Source: Virgibacillus sp. AGTR
GTDB taxonomy: Bacteria; Bacillota; Bacilli; Bacillales; Amphibacillaceae
DNA length: 64,000 nucleotides
Assembly (NCBI RefSeq): GCF_016919725.2
Contig: NZ_JAJERH010000004.1
Coordinates: 1-64,000 of the forward strand
Direction of reading: 5' to 3'
Shown here: piece by piece, positions 4,469 to 57,267 of the stretch
Layout: each line of letters begins with the position of its first letter
How positions within the stretch are numbered: the first letter of the stretch is position 1
The notes under the pieces: model-generated
Told to the model about the DNA's origin: nothing
Databases searched by the model: none
Seen by the model: the letters and a program-made list of their open reading frames with translations, nothing else
Translations under genes and position numbers: made by a program

Positions 4469-6669
4469 TATGATTCATTATCATCTATGTCGTCTTCATC
4501 TCCGATTAACAAAGCAACAATCGTACCAACACCTAAAGCAGCTATGACAGGAATACCGTGCGTAACTGCTAAATAAAGTAAAAAAACAAAACCTAACGTA
4601 GTTGCTGCAGCCTTTACCTCTTTTGAACTAAACGCATCTAATACAGGAGTTAGATCAATATCGACCGTAAATATTACTGTGACCGCAAGTTGAAGATTTC
4701 CTCCACCTTCTACTGGGATTTCTTCTTTGAAAGCAGTTACACGAAGTTCTGCATTAGTTCCTGATCCTGTTAGACTCAACTGGATAGCACCAGTACCTAT
4801 CGAAGCCGCCATATTATCTATAAAATCTTCATAAAATCCAAGTCGTTTTTGAGTAAATTGCGCCATGCTTTCTCCAAGCAAACTCTCAAGACTGCCGTTT
4901 ACTCCATTATTTGTGACTTGCAGTGTAGCTGTCGCCCCTCCATCACTAGGAGGATTTAACTGTTCACTGAATTCAACATCTATAGAGAATACATTTGCAA
5001 TTTCAGTAATTCGATACGTATGACTAAAATTAATATTCGTTACTAATAATTCTGAACCAAACTTTTGCAATCCTGGTATATTCTTACCCATTTCTACAAA
5101 CGCATTGTGTTTTGCTCGATATTCTTCGCTAATTTCTGGATTACCCGGAGGGTTTACTGCTGAAACACCTGGATCTTTGCCTGAATAATCATTTTTGTCG
5201 ATACCAAGCAATCCCATACCAGAACCAATTGCTGTTTCATGGAATTGATTAAAGGACCAATTCTTAGGCATCGTAAATCCTAAGTTTCCACTAAAACCTG
5301 TGGACATGTTTCCTACAAAACTGTAATCTGCTAACACACTGTTATTTGACTGTGCTCTTATACAAGTATTACGAGAACCATAAACACCAAGTTTGTATTC
5401 TGGTAAGCCCTCTTCGCCCTTAATAATATTCAACACATCACGAACTTCTGCTAAATAAGGAAGAATATTATTCGTTACTTCAAAATCATAAGCGTCATAA
5501 TCAACAGCAAAATAAATTGTTGTACCAGATGGAAATCCAAATTCGTTTGCTGCTCTAATGGCTTTCCATGCATCCTCTGTACCTTTCCCTGGTTTGAAGT
5601 ACTCCGCATACCACCCACCATCTTGGTATATAGGGAATACACGTATACCGTTTACCGCAAGAATGTTTAGTTCCTCATGGGTCATTGCTTTTGAACGACG
5701 TTCGGCTCCAGTTCCTACATAACCTGTTAGATAACGACCGATAATCTGGTAGTTATAATCAAGTAAGGTATTAGCAGTTGTTTGATTAATAACCGTAGAT
5801 GCATCACAAGCGATTGCCGTCCGACCTGTATACCCATTGCTTGTTAGTAATTGCTTGATGGTTGGCATATCAGCAACCCCATTAGCAGGAAGGGTCATAA
5901 ACTCCTTAAACAAGTTTATGGCTGTTTCTACTTGCGGATCAAAATCTCCATCATAAGGATGTGTATCGTATAAAGGACTATTACACGCGAGCGACCACTG
6001 CAAAATCCTTGTGAATTTCGCTGGTGCATCACCATAGCTTAGGGTAGGGCAATTATCAATAGTTGAAGGACCAAAATTACCATTTGCTATATGGCCGATT
6101 CCTTCTTCATGCTGCAAGGCGTATATTAAAGCCTTGTTTGACTTTCTTTCATAAATCCCATTCGTTGGAATGTAATCAAAATAATTACCATATTCCTTAT
6201 TAAGTGATTGTTGTATTTCTCTAACATTTTGTCGTCCGGAACTAATGCTTAATACAAAACCATCTGTATTCAATATTGCTTTCATTAACTTTGATGTTAC
6301 ATATCCAGTTGGTTCAACCCCGACATCAATTTCAAAGTCTTTAACTTTATTTTCCGTATCCCCAAAGAAATTTCCTGAAAAACCTCCTGGATCATAACCC
6401 TTACACCAGAATCCACCTTGAAGGATTTTATTCAAATTATTCGGTTTTGCACCATCTTCCTGTCTTGCCAATCCAGGAAATTCTCTAGTCGTAGCCGGAC
6501 CAAATGATGGTACCGGGTTTGGTATACCAAGCTCTATTTGTAAACCAATAATTAAAGCCCCTACTGTTGTATTACCTGTTGTACCATCTTCTGGTATAGG
6601 TGAAAAGCCTTTTCTTCCCGTATACGTATCATTCAGCCATTTCTGTACCTCTAGTACCATTTCATCCAT
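4468..6669 (-). CDS. Glycoside-hydrolase-like (DUF1906) protein with peptidoglycan-binding-like repeats and C-terminal membrane anchor
   Basis: 733 residues; start supported by AAAGGAGG 7 nt upstream. The N-terminal ~280 residues contain three or four repeats typical of PG_binding_1 modules. A DUF1906/Rv2525c-like TIM-barrel region follows from about 285 to 500 (AIACDASTVINQTTANTLL, RVFPIYQDGGW, TIYFAVDYDAYD). Next is a region of unknown fold and a hydrophobic C-terminal segment (LGFVFLLYLAVT, VIAALGVGTIVALLIG). No signal peptide is visible. It probably acts on or binds cell-wall glycan. A YvrJ-family gene lies upstream on the same strand. Confidence 0.75.
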   Translation of the reverse strand: MDEMVLEVQKWLNDTYTGRKGFSPIPEDGTTGNTTVGALIIGLQIELGIPNPVPSFGPATTREFPGLARQEDGAKPNNLNKILQGGFWCKGYDPGGFSGNFFGDTENKVKDFEIDVGVEPTGYVTSKLMKAILNTDGFVLSISSGRQNVREIQQSLNKEYGNYFDYIPTNGIYERKSNKALIYALQHEEGIGHIANGNFGPSTIDNCPTLSYGDAPAKFTRILQWSLACNSPLYDTHPYDGDFDPQVETAINLFKEFMTLPANGVADMPTIKQLLTSNGYTGRTAIACDASTVINQTTANTLLDYNYQIIGRYLTGYVGTGAERRSKAMTHEELNILAVNGIRVFPIYQDGGWYAEYFKPGKGTEDAWKAIRAANEFGFPSGTTIYFAVDYDAYDFEVTNNILPYLAEVRDVLNIIKGEEGLPEYKLGVYGSRNTCIRAQSNNSVLADYSFVGNMSTGFSGNLGFTMPKNWSFNQFHETAIGSGMGLLGIDKNDYSGKDPGVSAVNPPGNPEISEEYRAKHNAFVEMGKNIPGLQKFGSELLVTNINFSHTYRITEIANVFSIDVEFSEQLNPPSDGGATATLQVTNNGVNGSLESLLGESMAQFTQKRLGFYEDFIDNMAASIGTGAIQLSLTGSGTNAELRVTAFKEEIPVEGGGNLQLAVTVIFTVDIDLTPVLDAFSSKEVKAAATTLGFVFLLYLAVTHGIPVIAALGVGTIVALLIGDEDDIDDNES

Positions 6670-48917: not shown

Positions 48918-49343
48918 ATGAAAGCACAGGAAAAAGTGGAGAGTTTCCGAGGGGAACATTACTTTTTGAGCAACTTTTACCCAGCAACTGTAGTGTACGA
49001 CGGAGTCTGTTATGAAAATAACGAGGCAGCATTCCAGGCGCAGAAACAGCCAGAACGAGCAAAAGAATTCGCCTCCCTCCCACCAAACGAAGCCAAACGA
49101 CTCGGACGCCGGGTAAAACTACGCCCCGACTGGGAATCGGTGAAAAATGACATTATGGCTGACATAATCCGTGCAAAGTTTACCCAGAATGAAAATTTAC
49201 GCAAAAAATTAATCGAAACAAATCATGCAGAACTCATTGAGGGTAACCACTGGGAGGACACCTATTGGGGTGTTTGTCGAGGTAACGGTAGGAATGAACT
49301 CGGACAAATTCTGATGAAAGTACGAAGCGAACTCCATTCATGA
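48918..49343 (+). CDS. NADAR family protein (YbiA-like)
   Basis: 141 residues, single NADAR domain: GEHYFLSNFYPATVVYDGVC, NNEAAFQAQKQ, and ending WEDTYWGVCRGNGRNELGQI. Homologues act on ADP-ribosyl or NAD-related substrates, and some reverse ADP-ribosylation of guanine in DNA. Ends in tandem TGATAA. Fits with the macro and SLOG genes as a set. Confidence 0.88.
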   Translation: MKAQEKVESFRGEHYFLSNFYPATVVYDGVCYENNEAAFQAQKQPERAKEFASLPPNEAKRLGRRVKLRPDWESVKNDIMADIIRAKFTQNENLRKKLIETNHAELIEGNHWEDTYWGVCRGNGRNELGQILMKVRSELHS

Positions 49344-50832: not shown

Positions 50833-51073
50833 CCCATATAAGTAAGATATGGGCGAAAACTCGATGTTTTATAGTGTGCATATTTATGGTTCAGACATTC
50901 AATTGTTACAGTAGAAAACTTGCTCACTCGAAGAAGCAAAAAGCTAATTAATTGAATTAATGGGAGATCAAAGTATCACATGTCGTGAAGGCATAGTGGT
51001 ATTTGACTATCGCAACGATTATCTAGATTGTAAAAAAGAAATAAAAAAAAGACGGAAAGGACTGGAAGGAACA

Positions 51074-52345
51074 ATGAACCAACCTCTTGCCACACGTATG
51101 CGACCTACCTCCCTCTCCGAAGTCGTTGGTCAAGACCACCTTATCGGAGATCGTAAGGTATTAACTCGCATCGTTAACAGCCGTCAGATCGCTTCAATTG
51201 TCCTATACGGCCCCCCGGGTGTAGGCAAAACAAGCATTGCACATGCTTTATCAGGCGACCTCGGGGTCCCGTTCAGGTATTTCAATGCGGGCGCTCACTC
51301 CAAGAAAGATTTACAGACTATCGCCAAGGATGGTGCGCCTGGAAATCCTGCCATCATTTTAATCGATGAGGTGCATCGGCTCGATAAACCGAAACAAGAC
51401 TTTTTGTTAATGCAAATCGAGGATGGTTCGCTTATTATGGTCGGAGCGACCACAGAGAATCCGTATATGAGCATAAATCCTGCTTTGCGCTCGCGAAGTC
51501 ATATTTTCGAGCTAAAACCCATAAGCTCCAAAAACGTCGCAGAAAGGCTCTCTGTGGCACTGACAGACACTGAACGTGGACTAGGGAATATAAAAACAAA
51601 TATTGATAACAAGACGCTCCATCATATTGGTGAACAAACAAACGGTGATATCCGCAGCGCTCTTAACACGCTAGAGCTTGCTGTGATGTCTACGGAGCCT
51701 AAAAACGGGATATGTACTATTAATCGTGACATTATCAACACCTGCCTCCAGCAACGACAAATCGGTGGTGATAAAGATGGCGATTCGCATTACAATTTAC
51801 TGTCCGCATTCCAAAAATCAATACGGGGTTCCGATGCAGACGCTGCACTACATTACTTGGCACGGTTGATCCAGGCAGGCGATCTTATCAGTATCAACCG
51901 ACGGTTGCTTGTTATTGCTTACGAAGACATCAGCCTTGCAAGTCCCGAGCTGGGACAAGAAACACTCGCTGCCGTTACAGTTGCAGAACGGGTTGGCTTA
52001 CCAGAGGCTCGCATCCCACTCGCGCAAATTACAGTCCGATTAGCACTCAGTGCCAAGTCAAACATAGCATATAAAGCACTGGATAGAGCAACTGAAGCAC
52101 TAAATACTGGTCGAGACTTAACCGTGCCAAAACACTTGCAAGACGCACACTATCAGGGCGCATCAAAGCTCGGTCATGGTGTCGGTTATAAGTACCCGCA
52201 CAATTTTCGGTACGGGATTACAGACCAACAATACTTACCTGATGGCTTCTTATCCGACAGATACTTGCAGTTTAGAGATAGTCAGGATACAGAAATTATA
52301 CAAAACAGCTATTGTAAAATAAATGAAATCGTAAAGCGCGGGTAG
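51074..52345 (+). CDS. rarA: RarA/MgsA-type replication-associated recombination ATPase
   Basis: 423 residues from ATG 51074 after GGAAGGA. PLATRMRPTSLSEVVGQDHL start, Walker A YGPPGVGKTSIAHAL (~47), Walker B IDEVHRLDK (~97), sensor GATTENP, Arg finger region NPALRSRSHIFELKP, and the tetramerisation part YEDISLASPEL...GLPEARIPLA typical of RarA. It acts at stalled replication forks. Confidence 0.9.
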   Translation: MNQPLATRMRPTSLSEVVGQDHLIGDRKVLTRIVNSRQIASIVLYGPPGVGKTSIAHALSGDLGVPFRYFNAGAHSKKDLQTIAKDGAPGNPAIILIDEVHRLDKPKQDFLLMQIEDGSLIMVGATTENPYMSINPALRSRSHIFELKPISSKNVAERLSVALTDTERGLGNIKTNIDNKTLHHIGEQTNGDIRSALNTLELAVMSTEPKNGICTINRDIINTCLQQRQIGGDKDGDSHYNLLSAFQKSIRGSDADAALHYLARLIQAGDLISINRRLLVIAYEDISLASPELGQETLAAVTVAERVGLPEARIPLAQITVRLALSAKSNIAYKALDRATEALNTGRDLTVPKHLQDAHYQGASKLGHGVGYKYPHNFRYGITDQQYLPDGFLSDRYLQFRDSQDTEIIQNSYCKINEIVKRG

Positions 52346-52936: not shown

Positions 52937-53155
52937 ATGACCAAACAATATATCGCAAGTATCAAAAATAATACAAGGGGTACATGGGTAAAATCCATAG
53001 CAATTAATAGCTATACCGAGACTCTTTTTAAAAAAGAACGTCATATATTTAAAGACAAAAAGAGAGCGGAAAAAATACTCAAAATATTACAGGAAAGATA
53101 CCCTGATACATTCACTCTCTATTCCTGCAGACAAAACGGAGAAATTATACGCTAA
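52937..53155 (+). CDS. Basic hypothetical protein
   Basis: 72 residues, Lys/Arg-rich alpha/beta (KKRAEKILKILQERYPDTFT). AGAAGGAG precedes the ATG. Last gene before the structured RNA region. Confidence 0.6.
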   Translation: MTKQYIASIKNNTRGTWVKSIAINSYTETLFKKERHIFKDKKRAEKILKILQERYPDTFTLYSCRQNGEIIR

Positions 53156-53419: not shown

Positions 53420-53800
53420 TGCCAAGTATACAACATCCTATTACAACGTGTAGCAGGTCACAGATCAAACAACGTACGTATGTGTGGGGACACCTCTATG
53501 TACACGGGAAGATTCGCAGACTTTGACATTTAGTAGTGAGCCGTACCTGTCACATCTGAGCGCTGAGCTCCTTATTTATTGTCAGGACGAGCAACTGGGG
53601 CGAGTCGCATCACGGACTGGTTGTCTGTGAACTAATGGTATCGGGGAAGATTACAATGTGATGTGTATGATGACGAATCATCGGGTGTAATCGCAAACAG
53701 GTTGGTTACCTTGTGACACCTCTGTATATTGCTATAGGCCAACTATTAAGGGCCACTCATTCGCCGAGGGCAATATAGGCGAACAGAGGTGTATTTTTAA
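53420..53800 (+). ncRNA. Large structured non-coding RNA, 5' domain
   Basis: No open frame of note on either strand, GC above the flanks, and many compatible helices: GAGC/GCTC, TCACGGAC/GTCTGTGA, GATTACA (53649) with TGTAATC (53686), GATGA-CGAA-TCATC, and a long closing stem ACACCTCTGT (53724) / ACAGAGGTGT (about 53786) with inner TATATTGC/GCAATATA. A phage-like setting, length and tRNA-like 3' neighbour recall the GOLLD and ROOL classes of giant phage RNAs. Class membership is unproven. Confidence 0.5.
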
Positions 53801-53824
53801 AAAATTTCGAAACAACGCTATGAA

Positions 53825-54037
53825 AAAAATACGATATCAGCGCGAGGGTTCCCCTTTTAGACTTTACAGACACCCTCATCAAAAGGGGTAAGAATAAAGT
53901 CAGGTTCGCCATAAGTCCACGCAACCGCCTGTGAAATTTGCGGGGTTTCAGTAGGGCTGCAGACCGAACATAACTAGCGGTCAAGCGGGTAAATGGGTTG
54001 GGAAAATGGCAACTCTCGCGGTGATACTGTATCAACA
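53825..54037 (+). ncRNA. Large structured non-coding RNA, central domain
   Basis: A ~200-nt domain is closed by TATCAGCGCGAG (53835-53846) against CTCGCGGTGATA (54015-54026), one mismatch, extended by ATAC/GTAT. Inside, GAGGGT, CCCCTTTT and GACTTTA (53844-53866) are each complementary to ACCCTC, AAAAGGGG and TAAAGTC (53872-53901) in the same order, so the helices interleave. GACCG/CGGTC and CCGC/GCGG hairpins follow. This density is far beyond chance for a non-coding spacer. Confidence 0.55.
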
Positions 54038-54039
54038 AT

Positions 54040-54151
54040 GAAGCGGTAGCGGAATAGGTAGACGCAGCTAAGCTCATTACGTAACCAAAGGGAGCAGGCA
54101 AAATGTCAAACAACAAAGGTTTCATGCAGGGTGCAAATCCCTGCCGCTTTT
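54040..54151 (+). ncRNA. tRNA-like domain (Leu-type D arm, aberrant anticodon region)
   Basis: Acceptor GAAGCGG (54040-54046) pairs with CCGCTTT (54144-54150). The D arm GCGGAATAGGTAGACGC is nearly that of bacterial tRNA-Leu, and the T arm is CAGGG-TGCAAAT-CCCTG. Between D and T arms there are about 60 nt, too many for a normal tRNA. The anticodon stem pairs poorly (at best 3 of 5) and AACC/GGTT could form an enlarged variable arm. A tRNA relic or a tRNA mimic at the 3' end of the upstream RNA. Confidence 0.55.
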
Positions 54152-56277: not shown

Positions 56278-57267
56278 ATGAGTAGCGAAAACCCATACAC
56301 ACTACCCTTAATTCAAGACGGTCGAAAGCTACTTCACATAACCGACGACCGTCTGATTCGAAGATTCAAAATCAAAAATAAAGGGAAACTCCGGGACGTC
56401 AACGATCCGGTTCCCGAATTGAAAAACATATTAAAGGGCTGGAACGGGACGCTTACGGACTATTATGCCCAGCAGTTGCAGGAAAACGACGTGGCACATG
56501 TCGCCCATGCGTATCTACCTAATAAGTCGATTCAGACGAACGCACAGGCGCATCTCCATTCCCCTATCATCCAGTTCGATTTCAAAGGATTCTACGATTC
56601 TTGTAAATTCGACTACTTCAAGGACGTGTTGCGTGACCTTGACCCGACGCTCGACGATCAAAACGAAGACGTGATAAAGCGCCTGCTCATTGACCCGAAT
56701 ACCGGTGGTGTGACGCAGGGGCTTCCCGTTTCGGGCGCTCTTGCAGGACTCTCCCTGATACCTTTCTGGGTGGAGCTTGCGAAAACACTGCCTGAGAACA
56801 TCCGATTCACCCAGTATTCTGATGATTTAACGTTTAGCTATGTAGGTCAGGTACCATCCAGATTTACGATACCAGCGTTGACACAAAAAATTTACGAAGC
56901 GCTGAAAAATACAGGGTTAGACTTTAAACTAAATGCCGACAAAACACGCACGCAGAAAGAGCAATACCGAAAAATAACGGGGATTCGCATTAACCATCAC
57001 AACCAAACGACCCCGTCCCGAAACGATTATCGATTCTTGCGACATGCTTTGTATATACTTTCTAAATCTAACGATTTAGACAAAGAACTTACTGAATGGG
57101 GCTTCGCTTCAAAATCGGCATTCGTCGGCAAAGTGAGCTATATGCGTTCGATAGATTCCACCGGTAAGATCGACCGGCTCATCATGAAATACCGCACCGC
57201 CTGTCGGAAGCATGATTTTTTTACGACGTGGATTGATCAAGTATACAAAAGAAGTGCTTTTGCTTGA
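56278..57267 (+). CDS. Retron-like reverse transcriptase
   Basis: 329 residues with a full RT core: NAQAHLHSPIIQFDFKGFYDS (retron-type NAxxH then the first Asp), GVTQGLPVSGALAGLSLIPF (RT4), QYSDDLTFSYVG (catalytic YSDD, ~179), LNADKTRTQ (RT6) and ITGIRINHHN, which matches the VTG motif of the retron template-binding region. No maturase or endonuclease domain, so not a group II intron. Retron RTs make a DNA from a linked RNA, often for phage defence. The linked RNA would be expected just upstream. Confidence 0.88.
   Translation: MSSENPYTLPLIQDGRKLLHITDDRLIRRFKIKNKGKLRDVNDPVPELKNILKGWNGTLTDYYAQQLQENDVAHVAHAYLPNKSIQTNAQAHLHSPIIQFDFKGFYDSCKFDYFKDVLRDLDPTLDDQNEDVIKRLLIDPNTGGVTQGLPVSGALAGLSLIPFWVELAKTLPENIRFTQYSDDLTFSYVGQVPSRFTIPALTQKIYEALKNTGLDFKLNADKTRTQKEQYRKITGIRINHHNQTTPSRNDYRFLRHALYILSKSNDLDKELTEWGFASKSAFVGKVSYMRSIDSTGKIDRLIMKYRTACRKHDFFTTWIDQVYKRSAFA

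Follow-up and report, generated by a model that had tools for sequence, protein, structure and literature searches.

The window analysed here, the whole 64,000-nt stretch of DNA from Virgibacillus sp. AGTR, is part of a 157,889-bp contig (C150) of a 4.7-Mb genome. Replication, partition, integrase and transposase genes are present among the PHROG families listed for 49 ORFs of the window and 70 further ORFs of the contig. Terminase, portal and capsid are absent among the families listed (25 of 59 for the window and 25 of 60 for the rest of C150), and a phrog_2 terminase search gives matches on other contigs of the genome only, with none on C150. We infer that the carrier of the RNA locus described below is a plasmid-like or phage-derived element.

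The original prediction regarded positions 53420-54151 as a stretch without believable genes which encodes one giant structured non-coding RNA ending in a tRNA-like domain. The lack of genes is borne out: from the end of a 72-aa ORF at 53155 to the start of a 106-aa ORF at 54103, a range that includes 53420-54040, a conserved gene is not found. Three ORFs with 50 aa or more overlap the stretch, one of 52 aa (+), one of 122 aa (-) and the 106-aa ORF (+), which begins within the tRNA-like domain. No PHROG family matches the antisense 122-aa ORF, and its sole similarity to an ORF of the viral contig L152 is 18 residues, which by our reading are the conserved D-arm DNA beneath; the 106-aa ORF has neither a PHROG nor a Pfam match. 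A blastn search with the whole region against plasmids and phages gives no match, ARAGORN detects neither a tRNA nor a tmRNA in the window, and the tmRNA model does not match there. Folding of the complete 732 nt is significant (z -2.45, 0 of 20 shuffles as low), with 53420-53508 receiving no support from any test applied. Promoter-like sites in the surrounding 2 kb number 11 against 6.1 expected (sd 2.5). Within the stretch, only the T-arm together with the T-rich sequence behind it (54126-54144) scans as a terminator, so the transcript end may coincide with the tRNA-like element. The following features are distinguished:

53511..53629, plus strand: Module A, with homologues in L152 (also in G123) and L154 and compensated pairs
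53511-53517 with 53600-53606, plus strand: Module A closing stem P1, 7 bp
Within Module A, plus strand: invariant AGACUUUGAC...UGAGCCG, then the P2/P3 arm, then the strand CGAGCAAyUGGG
About 53610-53630, plus strand: Module A hairpin P4, loop UGGUU
53716..53792, plus strand: Module B, z -4.84, with a counterpart in L152
53716-53724/53784-53792, plus strand: Module B outer stem
53725-53732/53770-53777, plus strand: Module B inner stem closing two hairpins
53836..54025, plus strand: Module D, a branched fold closed by a long-range stem (53836-53850/54011-54025), z -3.83
54040..54150, plus strand: tRNA-like RNA without anticodon arm, covariance model R1 64.4 bits, E 3.5e-15
54040-54046/54144-54150, plus strand: acceptor stem, base 54144 being assignable to the T-stem or the acceptor
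54049-54065, plus strand: D-arm
54066-54125, plus strand: variable insert of 60 nt replacing the anticodon arm, with stem 54081-54086/54118-54123
54087..54098, plus strand: conserved insert motif AAAGGGAGCAGG, identical in the window, G012 (L132), L152 and L153
54132-54138, plus strand: T-arm loop UGCAAAU

The two long-range closing stems that had been read by eye are both found, at 53716-53724/53784-53792 and at 53836-53850/54011-54025, the latter with 14 of 15 pairs intact. Significant folding, in line with the original prediction, holds for the stretch as a whole and for modules B (z -4.84) and D (z -3.83, 0 of 200 shuffles as low). Neither the tRNA-like domain nor module A is unusually stable; for the latter z is -1.23, a value reached by 27 of 200 shuffles. 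The evidence for module A is comparative: 15 of its 25 pairs are changed on both sides in three sequences and 98.5% of 65 cells pair (0 of 500 shuffles), in a structure drawn from those same three sequences and with two arms present in only two of them. L152, the sequence of which is also contained within G123, a genome of the window's bacterial family, carries relatives of both module A and module B; for module A, comparing the two sequences with each other gives 80% over 55 nt (E 7e-10). In L154, from a phage contig of which the 9.8 kb examined contain 11 predicted tRNAs, module A occurs without the tRNA-like element. Module B was compared by separate folds, a two-row MAFFT alignment that misplaced the stems being set aside, and the same long inner stem and two hairpins are observed in the window and in L152; the proposed outer stem, GCGTG/CACGC, is missing from the minimum-energy fold of the latter. 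No homologue of module D was found, and the independent relatives thus number two for module A, one for module B and none for module D.

Further members were sought in several ways. Pattern scans for module A return 2 viral contigs and 2 of 159 genomes of the family and, with one mismatch allowed, 1 of 397 genomes of the order, the window's own. Applied to 128 sources, namely 127 loci and the window, a covariance model of module A, R2, turns up no additional member, the best other score being 13.2 bits, and a genus-wide search with the window region gives short matches only. Matches in G004 and G005 over window positions 53559-53587 were dropped as module A homologues as they look protein-coding. 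Rfam has no above-threshold family for modules A and B in L152 and L154, and an intron or riboswitch reading of the window RNA was set aside, with sub-threshold matches only. The modules are ordered A-B-D-tRNA-like in the window and B-A-tRNA-like in L152, a swap that speaks for a cluster of RNA modules rather than for a single giant RNA of fixed layout. A single RNA of ~730 nt, as originally proposed, is not confirmed, being weakened by the swap and by the lone module A of L154. The broader proposal of a large structured non-coding RNA fares better, being supported by conservation with compensatory changes and by the occurrence of ROOL in the equivalent place in another locus, L072; comparison supports the reading of the upstream stretch as a conserved, folded non-coding RNA composed of modules.

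The tRNA-like 3' domain was correctly recognized. R1, a covariance model trained without the window, finds it as its only match in the 64 kb, and it is a member of a phage family in which the anticodon arm is missing; its acceptor stem, D-arm and T-arm are present by comparison, and it starts 14 nt beyond the end of module D (54025 to 54040). Folded alone, the sequence is not unusually stable (z -1.58, 13 of 200 shuffles as low) and its minimum-energy fold differs from the cloverleaf core, so the cloverleaf in the window rests on comparative support. The copy is slightly off-type, with TA for TG at positions 8-9 and an acceptor/T helix one pair short, and could still be inactive. RF00005 at its gathering score does not match over the element in the window or in 50 other elements scanned. 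The window insert type is common to G012, L152 and L153. Over the whole element in these four sequences 10 of 22 pairs are changed on both sides (0 of 500 shuffles), further pair types not rising above shuffles in the same test (214 of 500); of the six pairs of the insert stem by the T-arm, one is changed on both sides, one on one side and one is broken in the window.

The family was assembled with the D-arm 17-mer, which brought in at least 120 IMG/VR stretches; loci with a T-arm and a pairing acceptor were kept and loci with an ARAGORN tRNA-Leu set aside. Selection for a T-arm and at least five acceptor pairs gives 68 distinct sequences, including the window copy, and all seven acceptor pairs are intact in 55 of them. 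A second set comprises 70 elements with at least six acceptor pairs, the window copy left out, L130 and L131 having been added to the loci later. The T-loop GGTGCAAATCC (UGCAAAU) is observed in 67 of the 70, variants having been allowed; the base directly after the acceptor is A in 41 of 70, and the commonest 3' ends lack an encoded CCA, which is untypical of tRNA. Covariation is extensive over 42 elements, with 12 of 16 pairs changed on both sides, among them 7 of 7 acceptor and 4 of 6 T-stem pairs, and with 99.0% of cells pairing versus 75.0% in shuffles and 34-41% with slid partners. These values are inflated as the elements were chosen for pairing, the slid control and the window match being less affected.

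A canonical anticodon arm (5-bp stem, 7-nt loop, T33) does not follow the D-arm in any of the 70 elements, a set that excludes the window copy, and five pairs with any loop occur there once (1.65 in shuffles). A short hairpin in place of the anticodon arm, seen in 22 of 70 against a shuffled mean of 13.05 and maximum of 22, is a weak signal. Insert length ranges from 8 to 192 nt. In L061, with an insert of only 8 nt, the element is an almost bare elbow of acceptor, D-arm and T-arm; in L036 and L074 the inserts contain ordinary-looking T-arms. Of the 70 elements a single one, that of L088 (4904-5104), is overlapped by an ARAGORN call, a tRNA-Lys (4968-5040) situated inside the insert. The acceptor GTGCTTG is common to loci with quite different inserts, one of which, L022, matches Lactobacillus phages, and the phages SPP1 and Grass have the same insert type (93% over 44 nt) and also a common hairpin preceding the element. 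Inserts thus behave as exchangeable cassettes.

R1 scores the window element well above the other matches in related genomes. At E <= 0.01 it gives a match in 60 of 61 genomes (the window's own and its 60 relatives), and among the matches listed those beyond the window and G012 (66.5 bits) score 29-39 bits, well under the 64.4 bits of the window; they are presumably tRNA-Leu genes. Of 121 genomes of the class, 5 have a match that passes E 1e-7, and in two of these, the own genome and G667, the score exceeds 60 bits. No Rfam family describes the element in the 51 copies scanned, window included; a badly aligned tail of an rliG match enters the element in L120, and a tmRNA match touches its first base in L159. 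No description of the element was recognized in the open literature searched or in Rfam 15; the uncatalogued 'Lacto-int' motif of Lactobacillales phages (PMC2864571) might be related. A recurrent phage RNA can therefore escape both tRNA finders and known RNA models.

All of the 16 loci picked from DNA matches score with R1, at 57.7 to 82.9 bits; they include Bacillus phages SPP1, Grass, phi3T and KLEB27-1; Lactobacillus phages LP65, phiJL-1 and Lenus; Latilactobacillus phage TMW 1.1365 P3; Leuconostoc phage Ln-9; Listeria phages 188 and LP-114; Enterococcus phage Ben; and Paenibacillus phage Pd_22F, with Lenus and KLEB27-1 being close to R1 training sequences. The phage annotations examined have no RNA feature over the element, and small hypothetical ORFs overlap it in LP65 (orf80), phi3T (phi3T_57) and KLEB27-1 (gp112). 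The consulted portion of the revisited SPP1 genome paper makes no mention of an RNA between genes 9 and 11 (PMC6316719). An RNA with a tRNA core and no anticodon is thus unannotated as RNA even in the model phages SPP1 and phi3T. Just past the SPP1 element (after position 1604 of L157), a short acceptor/T-arm-like sequence, ACGGAC...GTCCGT around GGGTTCAATTCCC, resembles a tRNA without D and anticodon arms. In LP65 the annotated tRNA genes are on the strand opposite to the cmscan tRNA matches.

Several of these elements directly adjoin other structured RNAs. In the prophage locus L072, a ROOL RNA (667-1248, 260.7 bits) ends 13 nt before the element (1262-1384, 86.9 bits). In Enterococcus phage Ben (L159) a tmRNA (1478-1828, 149.5 bits) abuts the element, which starts at 1828, with ROOL-like sequence several kb off. 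Listeria phage 188 (L161) has rliG (1750-1897) 4 nt upstream of the element (1902-2031), a Listeria prophage (L120:3553-4013) has the order rliG, tRNA-like element, mcrA RNA, and in LP-114 (L162) the element is followed by mcrA RNA. rliG is placed within prophage A118 of strain EGD-e (PMC3556495). ARAGORN tRNAs are situated upstream at coordinate differences of 2 (L040), 2 (L068) and 11 (L084), and downstream at 8 (L089). A DUF3800-VIII RNA is also observed in the phi3T locus and cow-rumen-4 RNA in the L040 and L089 loci. In the sequences compared, the same element therefore recurs directly 3' of several unrelated RNAs, namely ROOL, tmRNA, rliG and modules A/B. This arrangement is not general, as only 19 of 85 loci have a same-strand tRNA or tmRNA within 1000 nt and less than 500 nt of ORF-free sequence lies upstream in 28 of the 43 elements with enough sequence, so many elements are without a long RNA before them. 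At the level of sequence comparison, the covariation, the family and the repeated position of the element are established.

ROOL near tRNAs was also seen elsewhere. A ROOL-like match ends 16 nt before an annotated tRNA-Met in Enterococcus phage EfV12-phi1, and in Porthos a ROOL-like tail precedes a weak tRNA-like match, whose 29 bits do not exceed the scores of tRNA genes; in both phages ROOL-like denotes blastn likeness to L072 and not a ROOL-model score. In Porthos (L175:3060-3700) the tail occurs twice, ~0.5 kb apart, the second copy preceding a tRNA. A ROOL search in 81 genomes of the phylum found no match, and none in controls either. Passages of a paper on ROOL and GOLLD describe these RNAs as 'often near tRNA islands', with GOLLD env-38 downstream of a Met-tRNA and GOLLD linkers that can hold tRNAs, and leave the tRNA-like element unmentioned (PMC12286853).

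With respect to gene neighbourhood, 252 of 309 flanking mechanically called ORFs (69 loci) are co-oriented with the element. The nearest upstream ORFs (n=111) belong most often to phrog_248 (transcriptional activator, 16) and phrog_36 (13), with 4 in an Alt-like activator family and 2 in a sigma factor family; among the 111 nearest downstream ORFs, HNH endonuclease and terminase families are commonest, each with at most 5 members and overlapping. None of these families is among the 25 of 69 listed for 61 distant control ORFs (> 5 kb away). These counts treat related loci separately. In SPP1 and L152 the element precedes the scaffold gene, and the leaders before this gene are 75% alike. That the element of many phages is placed close to scaffold, terminase or HNH genes points to a possible late-infection role.

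Comparison with known systems delimits what the locus is. ROOL (RF03087) is likewise a large structured phage or prophage RNA, with the typical, not defining, trait of lying near tRNA genes, to which the 14-nt gap of the window corresponds; it has no gathering match in the window. GOLLD, OLE and HEARO also have Rfam models. In a scan of 4227 Rfam 15 families none of these four models was reported, and the suggestion of a divergent GOLLD or ROOL is unsupported, neither being among the six matches at E <= 10. As in tRNA-Leu and other class II tRNAs (RF00005), the element has an acceptor, a D-arm (GCGGAAUAGGUAGACGC), which we take to be tRNA-Leu-like, and a long region before the T-arm. Class II tRNAs have a UUCRANN T-loop and an anticodon arm, whereas the element has UGCAAAU, no anticodon arm, usually a 6-bp T-stem and an insert of 8-192 nt. 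tmRNA (RF00023) is likewise a tRNA-like domain without a usable anticodon and with an insert; the element differs in its full D-arm, and the window has no tmRNA call or match. rliG (RF02415), 5' of the element in L161 and L120, and mcrA RNA (RF03010), 3' of it in L162 and L120, have models of which neither describes the element. The layout, a long non-coding RNA followed by a tRNA-like element, is the same as in MALAT1/mascRNA of animals and viral tRNA-like structures, which are eukaryotic systems with no homology implied; processing of MALAT1/mascRNA includes an RNase P step. The tRNA-like transcripts are described as enzymatically generated (PMC9777231).

The reading we prefer, to which we give about an even chance, is that of a phage-type non-coding RNA locus in which modules A/B/D are followed by a tRNA-like RNA that is cut out by RNase P, setting the 3' end of the upstream RNA. 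The locus would be transcribed as one precursor, RNase P would cleave at 54039/54040, the 5' end of the element as judged from its shape and position, the upstream RNA would gain its 3' end by this cut, and on the other side trimming by RNase Z or an exonuclease would release the tRNA-like RNA. The element keeps the parts read by tRNA-processing enzymes (acceptor/T helix, D-loop GG and T-loop) and, with no anticodon arm, should not decode. With tRNAs 2-11 nt from the element exact tRNA-type cuts would be needed, and the spacing of a few nucleotides to tRNAs, tmRNA and ROOL seems hard to explain otherwise. The predicted cut at the 5' end of the tRNA-like domain further weakens the idea of one ~730-nt RNA. 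Against this reading are the untypical T-loop UGC rather than UUC and the lack of an encoded CCA, the other settings in which the majority of elements sit, the few relatives of modules A, B and D, the off-type window copy with its non-cloverleaf minimum-energy fold, and the inserts, since a mere processing signal would not explain their being conserved yet varied; the order of GOLLD env-38 relative to Met-tRNA is also opposite (PMC12286853). In a more tentative generalization, which we consider somewhat less apt to hold than to fail, phages with named hosts so far mainly in the Bacillota would carry tRNA mimics that lack an anticodon and have structured inserts open to exchange, a class undescribed in the open literature searched and Rfam 15 with Lacto-int aside. 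As a bacterial counterpart of MALAT1/mascRNA, they would form the 3' ends of large phage RNAs and release them (ROOL, rliG, the window RNA and even tmRNA), and they would also be effector RNAs of the late phase, the window RNA being the first of a second, modular class of large phage RNA using such a device. The element right behind ROOL in one prophage offers a handle on 3'-end formation of large phage RNAs, and the element itself a handle on the purpose of tRNA mimicry late in infection.

Other readings account for parts of these data. The tRNA-like domain may stay attached and cap an ornate RNA of ~640 nt that serves as a cage or scaffold, the role put forward for ROOL and GOLLD, a reading consistent with the long-range stems, the significant folding and the equivalent position of ROOL in L072; the reversed A/B order in L152, the solitary module A in L154 and the short ORF-free sequence upstream of 28 of 43 elements make it unlikely. 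We find it rather improbable, if a serious candidate, that the tRNA-like RNA is a free-standing late-phase RNA with the upstream RNA a mere neighbour, for instance one that regulates the late operon or one that takes part in packaging, with a role comparable to that of phi29 pRNA. The co-oriented flanking ORFs, the phrog_248 and phrog_36 genes upstream, the HNH endonuclease and terminase genes downstream, neither kind being among the families listed for the distant controls, and the scaffold genes of SPP1 and L152 all point in this direction. These same counts include related loci separately and are set against controls with 25 of 69 families listed, the start of a late operon also gathers promoters and RNAs, the element sits among tRNA genes in several Herelleviridae, and no packaging gene is among the families listed for the window.

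The inserts raise the further idea of a decoy, a tRNA-like RNA which sequesters some enzyme of the host, or a defence factor, that recognizes the tRNA elbow, with insert diversity reflecting an arms race. Different inserts behind the same acceptor GTGCTTG and the insert type common to SPP1 and Grass are in keeping with it; anticodon nucleases would find no anticodon to cut, and we consider this quite unlikely. Finally, the tRNA-Leu-like D-arm and the 29-39-bit matches in related genomes would suit a decayed tRNA-Leu pseudogene beside unrelated intergenic sequence. Set against retention of UGCAAAU in 67 of 70 elements and double-sided changes in 7 of 7 acceptor and 4 of 6 T-stem pairs, in elements chosen for pairing, this is hardly credible, and for the family it is refuted as far as the covariation of the 42 elements goes; the single window copy may nonetheless be inactive.

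Other genes of the window lie in the vicinity of the RNA locus. A NADAR-domain gene (48918-49340) and a MgsA/RarA-type AAA+ gene (50960-52342) are close to it. A reverse transcriptase gene is encoded at 56278-57264 (PF00078, E 8.5e-08; phrog_2825); the ~1 kb preceding it is without a convincing gene, and this is possibly a retron or defence reverse transcriptase with its own RNA.
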